Source of the DNA: Aquificota bacterium
GTDB taxonomy: Bacteria > Aquificota > Aquificia > Aquificales > Hydrogenothermaceae
Assembly (NCBI GenBank): GCA_013153295.1
Contig: JAADEV010000128.1
Coordinates: 1-11,760 of the forward strand
Direction: 5' to 3'
Length of the DNA stretch: 11,760 nt
Part shown: positions 10,621 to 11,760 of the stretch, in pieces
Numbering within the stretch: the first letter of the stretch is position 1
How the letters are laid out: each line of letters starts with the position of its first letter
Made by a program: the position numbers and the translations under genes
The notes under the pieces: model-generated
What the model was told of the DNA's origin: nothing
Seen by the model: only the letters and a program-made list of their open reading frames with translations
Database searches by the model: none

Positions 10621-11310
10621 ATGGACAAAGACAAAGAGGCTTTTTTAAAAAATATACCCTTATTGGAAGGTATACCTGAAGAGGACATACAGAACATATC
10701 TAAGTATTTCCATTTAAAAGAGTATAAAAAGAACGACTATATATTCTTTGAAGGGGACGAAGAACCGGGAATATACATAGTGGTAGAGGGTATAGTAAAG
10801 CTGATAAAGGAAACAGCAGACGGAAAAACTGTAATACTTAGACTGGTTACCCCCAAGGAGGTTTTCGGTTGGCTTGTGGTAGGGGATACAAAACCTACAA
10901 GCACATACACAGCACAGGCATTAATGGACACAAAGGTTTTACATATATCAAATCAGGATTTTATAAAGCTGTTAAAACAGTATCCTGCACTGGCAATAAA
11001 GATAACCTGTGATGCGTCAAAGATGCTACTTGAGGCTTACGACAGACTGAAAAGCCTCGCCGCAGAAAAGGTAGAAGGTAGAATAGCAAGTTTACTACTT
11101 GAGCTGTCCAGAAAGATAGGCGTTGAACAGGGGGACAAAGTGGTAATAAAAGCCCCTATCACCAGACAGGATTTAGCAGAGATGACAGGAACAACAGTAG
11201 AAACAGCAATCCGTATAATGAGCAGATGGAAAAAGGAAGGTATCGTAAACACCGAACGGGGCAAAATAGAAATAATAGACATAGACTATTTAGAAGATTT
11301 AGTTTCTTAA
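10621..11310 (+). CDS. Crp/Fnr-family transcriptional regulator
   Basis: From ATG 10621 the protein has 229 residues. An N-terminal cyclic-nucleotide-binding-type beta roll (about 20-115) carries KNDYIFFEGDEEPGIYIVVEG (37-57) and EVFGWL (80-85). A dimerisation helix (about 120-147) and a C-terminal winged helix follow, with the helix-turn-helix at about 180-207 (ITRQDLAEMTGTTVETAIRIM). The ligand pocket differs from CRP: the usual GE...RSA cAMP signature reads GWLVVGDTKPTSTYT, with no arginine to bind the phosphate, so cAMP is unlikely. The N-terminal cysteine cluster of oxygen-sensing FNR is also missing; the only cysteine is C130. The recognition helix has ETAIR where Crp/Fnr usually has ETVSR. 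The effector is therefore unknown. It begins 20 bases after the MCE stop and is probably in the same transcript; its targets cannot be read from the window. Confidence 0.92.
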   Translation: MDKDKEAFLKNIPLLEGIPEEDIQNISKYFHLKEYKKNDYIFFEGDEEPGIYIVVEGIVKLIKETADGKTVILRLVTPKEVFGWLVVGDTKPTSTYTAQALMDTKVLHISNQDFIKLLKQYPALAIKITCDASKMLLEAYDRLKSLAAEKVEGRIASLLLELSRKIGVEQGDKVVIKAPITRQDLAEMTGTTVETAIRIMSRWKKEGIVNTERGKIEIIDIDYLEDLVS

Positions 11311-11319
11311 ACTACTACC

Positions 11320-11420
11320 CTATATAAATTAGAAAGTTCTATACTTCATAGCTGAATATCTCTAGGCTGCAAGTAGCCCTAAATCTTGCCAACAGAGCCA
11401 GCATTAGGATTTTTTCCTAG
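11320..11420 (-). pseudogene. Decayed TnpB C-terminal tail and element end (second copy)
   Basis: On the minus strand this stretch reads like a worn copy of the intact tail at 11574-11760. Both share GCTGGCTCTGT followed by Y-GGC (AGSVG; at 11390-11404 here), then CAG-Y-CTA...GAGA-Y-AT, then AGCT-R-TGAAG, in the same order. The relic lacks about 50 bases of the middle, has stop codons inside the tail (TAG at 11379-11381 and a TGA further on), and its terminal hairpin is degraded. The alignment was made by eye. It suggests an older insertion of a related IS200/IS605-type element in the same orientation. The limits are approximate. Confidence 0.5.
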
Positions 11421-11556: not shown

Positions 11557-11599
11557 GTGAACCACTCTCCAATTTATTGGAGAGCTTCCTGCTTCACAG
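11555..11599 (-). repeat. Nested hairpin at the tnpB stop, likely right end of an IS200/IS605-type element
   Basis: A perfect inverted repeat of two 9-base arms, CTCTCCAAT and ATTGGAGAG, with a 2-base loop spans 11565-11584. It is enclosed by a second 7-base stem, CTGTGAA (11555-11561) with TTCACAG (11593-11599). The tnpB stop codon falls in the inner loop. Minus-strand RNA would carry this hairpin followed by GTGGTTCAC. Subterminal hairpins just before the end are typical of IS200/IS605 right ends, and ISDra2 ends in a similar GAGGTTCAA (recalled). The exact boundary, near 11557, is inferred. Confidence 0.65.
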
Positions 11600-11760
11600 C
11601 TAGATGTCTCGTAGACTGCCCATTGATAGGCACTGCTCCCTTTCGGTCGCTAATTTGCTCTCGCAAAAGTCCGCCGACAGAGCCAGCTCCACAGGCTTTA
11701 CTTGTTCCCTTTCGGTCACCAATTTGCTTTCGCAAAAGTCCCGCAGTCCCTGCGGTAGGG
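11574..11760 (-). CDS. tnpB: TnpB (IS200/IS605 OrfB) C-terminal tail, partial
   Basis: The frame enters from the right edge and gives the last 61 residues, ending at TAA 11576-11574. It reads TAGTAGLLRKQIGDRKG, then SKACGAGSVGGLLREQ, then a tail ending RHLAVKQEALQ. TnpB proteins commonly finish with a low-complexity AGTAG/ACG/GS-rich stretch and a VKQEA-type terminus, because this part of the gene also encodes the omega RNA scaffold. That composition and the hairpin at the stop are the grounds for the call. The RuvC core and zinc finger lie outside the window, so intactness of the nuclease cannot be judged. TnpB would be an RNA-guided DNA nuclease that helps the transposon persist at its site. 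No TnpA transposase is visible. Confidence 0.7.
   Translation of the reverse strand, partial: PTAGTAGLLRKQIGDRKGTSKACGAGSVGGLLREQISDRKGAVPINGQSTRHLAVKQEALQ
11637..11741 (-). repeat. 69-bp in-frame tandem duplication in the tnpB 3' end
   Basis: Bases 11637-11672 and 11706-11741 match at 33 of 36 positions and are offset by 69 bases, or 23 codons. They encode GLLRKQIGDRKG and GLLREQISDRKG. Each copy contains a TTTGC...GCAAA stem on the minus strand, with loops GAGA and GAAA respectively. The duplication preserves both the reading frame and the hairpin. Confidence 0.9.

Follow-up and report, generated by a model that had tools for sequence, protein, structure and literature searches.

In the TnpB systems described in PMC10278001 (AmaTnpB, Dra2TnpB and others), the 3′ tail of the element forms a structured RNA, the omega RNA scaffold, with a hairpin near its 3′ end, and the number of hairpins varies among these scaffolds. 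According to PMC3733652, repetitive extragenic palindromic (REP) sequences are 20–40 bp palindromic repeats that are thought to be non-autonomous and sometimes lie inside genes, those associated with REP-associated tyrosine transposases (RAYT) carry a GTAG or CGTC tag beside the hairpin, and Rickettsia palindromic elements (RPE) enter protein genes as in-frame insertions. PMC2800124 describes repetitive elements that form hairpins, among them the double-hairpin elements of Allomyces mitochondria, as thought to be mobile and as lying in genes and spacers. Here we analysed an 11,760-nt stretch of DNA (the window), which is the entire contig C130 (JAADEV010000128.1) of an Aquificota bacterium genome (GCA_013153295.1, Hydrogenothermaceae; 74.7% complete, 149 contigs). 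Its last bases carry, on the minus strand (11557–11760), the 3′ end of an IS200/IS605 insertion sequence (IS) element, made up of a right-end hairpin and a tnpB tail that also serves as an omega-RNA-type scaffold, and within this tail a pair of hairpins occurs twice. A preliminary description had read the duplicated hairpins as part of the scaffold; we consider it probable that a non-autonomous double-hairpin element (DHE), which is dispersed in the Hydrogenothermaceae, has inserted here twice. As in the AmaTnpB and Dra2TnpB scaffolds, so far as that source describes them, the 3′ tail of the window element is predicted to be structured with a hairpin near its 3′ end; unlike in those scaffolds, the DHE is an added module that is absent from many sister elements.

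The DHE is about 33–42 nt long, begins with AC followed by hairpin 1, a linker (GG(C/T)GA, AGCGA or GAGC) and hairpin 2, and ends with C (mostly GC) just before an A. Its general layout is AC-stem 1-GG(C/T)GA-stem 2-GA(G/A)C, and the minus strand of the window shows it as TTTGC-GAAA-GCAAA with CC-GAAA-GG (11739–11703) and as TTTGC-GAGA-GCAAA with CC-GAAA-GG (11670–11634), the 37-nt model match of copy 1 taking in the flanking A at 11703. The stems vary between subfamilies, and a scan read 10 stem-1 and 9 stem-2 sequences among 29 unique type A cores. The third bases of linker and terminus pair in 27 of these cores (C-G in 22, T-A in 5) and read A..G in the other 2; without a correction for relatedness, the 27 give a Fisher p of 1.2e-5. 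The hairpins and the CCGCA/TGCGG stem noted in the preliminary description are real, and the units recur beyond chance, but the GNRA loops are not conserved: GAAA or GAGA was present in 4 of the 29 cores at loop 1 and in 6 at loop 2. Type B units are predicted to form a GC/GC clamp around hairpin 2 in single-stranded DNA. Single hairpins of the form GGCGA[ACCGAAGGT]GAGCA, which resemble the second half of a DHE, were seen in tandem in genome G002 (L061, 1450–1600); in G006 they adjoin a TnpB III gene at its start (L055, 1475–1525).

Filled and empty versions of the tnpB sites, measured between fixed anchors, were 43/7 nt at S1, 42/0 nt at S3, 52/16 nt at S4 and 41/5 nt at S5, so that they differed by exactly 36 nt at S1, S4 and S5 and by 42 nt at S3. 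In other TnpB families the difference was again 36 nt, both at the TnpB-III N-terminus (57/21 nt) and at tail site S2 of TnpB-II (44/8 nt). No target duplication beyond one A was present in the filled and empty pairs. S4 was empty in nine of 13 distinct stretches and, within the genome of the window, it is empty on contigs C97 and C3 and filled on C132 and C90; the two sister 3′ ends that lack the unit speak against the proposed scaffold role of the duplicated hairpins. Copy 1, at S2, had no exact empty counterpart in TnpB family I, and the sequence around it is closer to the filled S2 site in TnpB family II than to family I, so this copy may have arrived with a recombined tail. The two units are 69 nt apart and the stretch between them is not duplicated, and local tandem duplication was therefore rejected. 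With each copy the tnpB frame becomes 12 codons longer and the scaffold gains two hairpins, and the copies appear to be tolerated there.

A covariance model of the DHE was used for a census of 46 genomes, 28 of Hydrogenothermaceae (f1) and 18 of f2 and f3. An alignment over all subfamilies failed because the stems differ, and the model therefore covers type A only; it was trained on 13 type A units including both window copies, and the scores of training copies are not independent evidence. It gave 23 matches at E ≤ 2.1e-5, a lower bound, all in nine genomes of Hydrogenothermaceae with at most five per genome. Three TnpB families account for 14 of the 23, in the gene or its tail, and the other nine are at leaders or array ends of clustered regularly interspaced short palindromic repeats (CRISPR). 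The tnpB copies comprise five in the window's genome G000 (C130 twice, C132, C90, C73) and others in G001:C38, G014:C59, G016:C166 (a remnant), G018:C22, G018:C36 (twice), G021:C103, G024:C14 and G024:C55. Most DHE in tnpB keep the frame: each of the six sites measured gained 36 or 42 nt, and 33-nt units lie within open reading frames (ORFs). In L026 (1240–1273), L199 and L220, units interrupt the TnpB protein at some distance from its very end (QIYDLSDQKGA, KQISDLSDQKGA) and the ORF is still open. An internally deleted element in L007 (3760–4160) joins a fragment of TnpA to a tnpB tail that holds three double-hairpin units and is a candidate for a non-autonomous copy similar to palindrome-associated transposable elements (PATE) or for a solo omega RNA.

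The DHE-bearing CRISPR arrays belong to three repeat families, and the units at these loci are 35, 36 or 38 nt long; the leader side was assigned from repeat orientation. Five copies occupy three different positions in a conserved leader with the AATATATTTTCT motif (G004:C31, G009:C2, G016:C36, G001:C3, G001:C27), the two G001 leaders retaining just one repeat-like remnant in the stretch inspected, and another AATATATTTTCT-type leader with DHE was found outside the census (L032 of G033). G014:C120 has a DHE in a leader of the arrays whose repeat is GTTTTTAG.GTGCCTAT.AGGAATTGAAAC; the array of G014:C120 itself has decayed, but 11 repeats follow an empty leader elsewhere in this genome (L260). 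The remaining copies sit at the outer array end where the repeat is GTCGCAATGCCCTT... (G024:C43, G024:C62, G014:C143 and, above the E threshold, the weaker G018:C40). Filled and empty lengths were 38/3 nt at CRISPR site P2 and 37/1 nt at leader-4, with empty copies of P2 and an empty copy of leader-4 in the same genome as the filled one. Arrays with the repeat GTCGCAATGCCCTT(AAAAAG or ATTAG)TCGGG... were joined at one end to a DHE in three genera (L186–L188, L197); no repeat lies beyond the unit at the outer end of these arrays, and acquisition as a spacer by Cas1-Cas2 was rejected. Counted by eye, separate type A insertions with unlike flanks number about 4 to 6 tnpB sites plus 5 CRISPR positions, the range for tnpB being wide because families I and II may share one old insertion at S2 (perhaps also at S4).

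Several controls accompany the census. The type B pattern matched 17 times in nine of the 46 genomes, all Hydrogenothermaceae, and the reversed control pattern had 0 matches; by their flanks, 14 of the 17 lie in tnpB elements, L212 lies away from tnpB contexts, L210 is without the second hairpin, and L211 is in what we take, from its resemblance, to be a remnant of another transposase. A structural scan counting both strands found 49 unique units in Aquificota loci versus 0 in 1.1 Mb of control loci, which is not a density as most of these loci were chosen for resemblance. When only the motifs and no stem were demanded (41 genomes), a stem of at least two pairs was present in 20 of 33 matches in f1 versus 1 of 30 in f2/f3 (unique matches, 13 of 24 versus 1 of 27). 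A pattern scan of public genome contigs returned 84 stretches, 11 of them in records titled Hydrogenothermaceae, Persephonella or Aquificota; among 80 of the 84, those from other records looked by eye like a recurring Burkholderiales coding motif or chance. Above E 2.1e-5, G003:C5 and G003:C13 are TnpB-III tails, while G053 (f2, 9.9e-5), G052, G042 (f3), G018:C50, G023:C250 and G009:C1 lack a unit. Other weaker model matches were L262, in a CRISPR-leader-like stretch at a contig end, and L263, a tnpB-tail remnant; L261, L264, L265 and L266 have the appearance of ordinary coding sequence without a full unit and were discarded.

The best reading of the DHE is a miniature mobile repeat like REP, RPE or the mitochondrial double-hairpin elements. 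As far as those families are described in the sources above, it shares with REP, bacterial interspersed mosaic elements (BIME) and REPINs, the repeats of RAYT (TnpA-REP), the small size, the palindromes and the occasional location within genes, with RPE the in-frame insertion (six tnpB sites; exception L190, 38 nt), and with the Allomyces elements the two hairpins. It differs from REP by its constant motifs AC, GG(C/T)GA and GA(G/A)C, by the lack of a GTAG or CGTC tag on inspection, and by its few strong matches per genome at tnpB and CRISPR loci; from RPE by its phylum, two-hairpin layout and host gene tnpB; and from the Allomyces elements by its location on a bacterial chromosome with a conserved and covarying linker and terminus. 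RPE-1 is also much longer than the DHE. It does not match miniature inverted-repeat transposable elements, as its ends AC and GC form no terminal inverted repeats and target duplication is limited to the single A. Among the papers listed by literature searches, mostly outside subscription journals, none described this repeat, as judged from titles and abstract starts.

The structured tail itself, which the preliminary description had proposed together with selection on structure as well as protein, was supported. The 204-nt minus strand folds at −73 kcal/mol versus a shuffle mean of −60.6 (sd 4.4; z −2.8; 2 of 200 shuffles as good). A consensus built from eight tails without inserts (seven f1 and one f2, L027; the window not in the alignment) has 46 pairs, 17 of them with at least one both-side change, although some pairs are broken in one or two sequences. 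It comprises stems a and b, a long-range pairing of CCUGU with GCAGG, a set of inner helices and, at the right end, the hairpin. The TTTGC hairpins fall outside this common scaffold. By our reading of the consensus, S1 lies in the loop of stem a and S2, S3 and S5 lie in junctions, and S4 splits a three-pair helix in which GGA is restored by the first A of the DHE itself.

The assignment of the tail to tnpB, and of the genome to Aquificota, likewise held. The frame crosses the hairpin region and stops at 11576–11574, overlapping the right-end hairpin, and the contig end at 11760 cuts the gene, most of which lies beyond the window. The 61-aa piece alone matched no Pfam family. The preliminary reading depended on a TnpB RuvC domain upstream; in the family this is borne out by the domains of the intact homologue L014 (438 aa, similar tail), which has OrfB_IS605, Cas12f1-like TNB and HTH_OrfB domains (PF01385, PF07282, PF12323); the window ends before them. 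The subterminal right-end hairpin and structured 3′ tail are those of an IS200/IS605 TnpB element. Further copies of the element (its last ~200 minus-strand bases) are on C132, C90, C97 and C3 of the same genome, and four of the five contigs with copies end inside it. At Rfam gathering thresholds, no family matched the window tail, the sole match in the window being a tRNA at 546–618, and among 14 related loci the only matches were to CRISPR repeats, in L032. Beside the better-kept right end, at 11310–11404 on the minus strand, lies another, decayed one that belongs to a related IS element (GCTGGCTCTGTTGGC...CAGCTATGAAG...GTAGTTTAAG).

Table 1. Coordinates of the DHE copies and surrounding features in the window
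Feature	Position	Strand	Evidence
Inferred right boundary of IS element (GGTTCAC)	11557..11563	-	Similarity among copies stops here, judged by eye
Right-end subterminal hairpin CTCTCCAAT-AA-ATTGGAGAG	11564..11585	-	Both-side changes in relatives, columns 121-146 of consensus
tnpB tail (...KACGAGSVGG...VKQEALQ*), cut by contig end	11574..11759	-	Open ORF; resembles C-terminus of intact L014 TnpB
DHE copy 2, type A, 36 nt, site S4, inserted at GGCGG^AATG	11635..11670	-	R1 51.1 bits; model training sequence
DHE copy 1, type A, 36 nt, site S2, between native stem b and AAGTAAAGCCTGT	11704..11739	-	R1 56 bits, E 1.5e-16; model training sequence
Native stem b of scaffold (CCGCA-GGGAC-TGCGG)	11741..11755	-	Position = consensus columns 23-37; both-side changes at pairs 26-34, 27-33

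As a mobile repeat, the DHE would spread by insertion with a target duplication of at most one nucleotide and would have entered several sites of the tnpB tail/omega RNA region, further positions in three TnpB families, and CRISPR leaders or array ends. In Y1/HUH elements (IS200/IS605, REP), a guide 5′ of the hairpin reads the cleavage site. The clean insertion before A without longer duplication, the two hairpins and the pairing of linker and terminus recall these elements, and we tentatively propose that the DHE could be copied as single-stranded DNA by a Y1/HUH enzyme, either the resident TnpA or one akin to RAYT. In this scheme the left end would be hairpin 1 and the right end hairpin 2, and the linker would act as guide by pairing with the terminal GA(R)C. 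A number of points weigh against mobility or this route. No transposase is tied to the DHE; the Y1_Tnp search gave one partial match in the window's genome and, at L195, one TnpA next to a filled tnpB. The 5′ flanks have no fixed tetranucleotide of the kind that Y1 enzymes usually need, and the two type A units folded alone as DNA barely beat shuffles (z −1.1 and −1.6). Many copies are related by descent, and the family is patchy, with no strong unit in G022 (14 tnpB matches) or G006 (nine). The frame is not always kept, as the ORF ends inside a 38-nt unit in a TnpB-III tail (L190). Scan and model both require paired stems, which makes stem conservation partly circular, and the motif-only control escapes this for stem 2 only; the census used stricter filters over >40 genomes, with no more than 150 candidates scored in any one genome.

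A locally duplicated part intrinsic to the omega RNA scaffold of a thermophile, lost in some copies, would fit the location of two nearby units in a structured tnpB tail, but we regard it as highly improbable: the unit is missing at S4 from sister ends of the window's genome, the sequence between the window units is single, and the same unit occurs at other tnpB sites and in other TnpB families, while its copies in CRISPR leaders already contradict an origin within the scaffold. That all 23 strong matches are at tnpB or CRISPR loci, and that array-end copies are common to three genera (L186–L188, L197), would also be expected of a functional module, such as a protein-binding or RNA-processing site, kept by selection and not by selfish spread. 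We think this unlikely given the patchy distribution (by eye, the unit is absent from 18 of 23 distinct leader stretches; in another leader set it is absent from 9 of 10), the varying leader positions and the type B copies elsewhere (L211, L212). It is quite unlikely, too, that a small number of old insertions, or a single one, was spread solely through recombination among tnpB copies and among CRISPR leaders. Both are multi-copy families and the family II-like flank of copy 1 is in line with such exchange, but homologous recombination cannot carry a unit to a non-homologous site, and type A alone is found between the several unlike flanks counted above. Insertion of a mobile repeat remains our preferred explanation.

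The concentration of the DHE at tnpB and CRISPR loci is the surprising part. Hydrogenothermaceae genomes have 0 to 14 TnpB matches each, so these loci make up a small part of each genome. It is conceivable, though rather unlikely, that the DHE is directed to loci of RNA-guided nucleases and selectively colonises TnpB/omega RNA genes and CRISPR leaders, perhaps through transposition that uses the TnpA, TnpB or Cas machinery or their single-stranded intermediates. The guide-like covariation offers a very small substrate on which to test a Y1/HUH mechanism. CRISPR leaders and TnpB elements are linked through a single small parasite or module. The finding indicates that omega RNA scaffolds and TnpB C-termini can grow by capturing a mobile hairpin module, and such capture could help to explain the wide variation of hairpin number among TnpB scaffolds.
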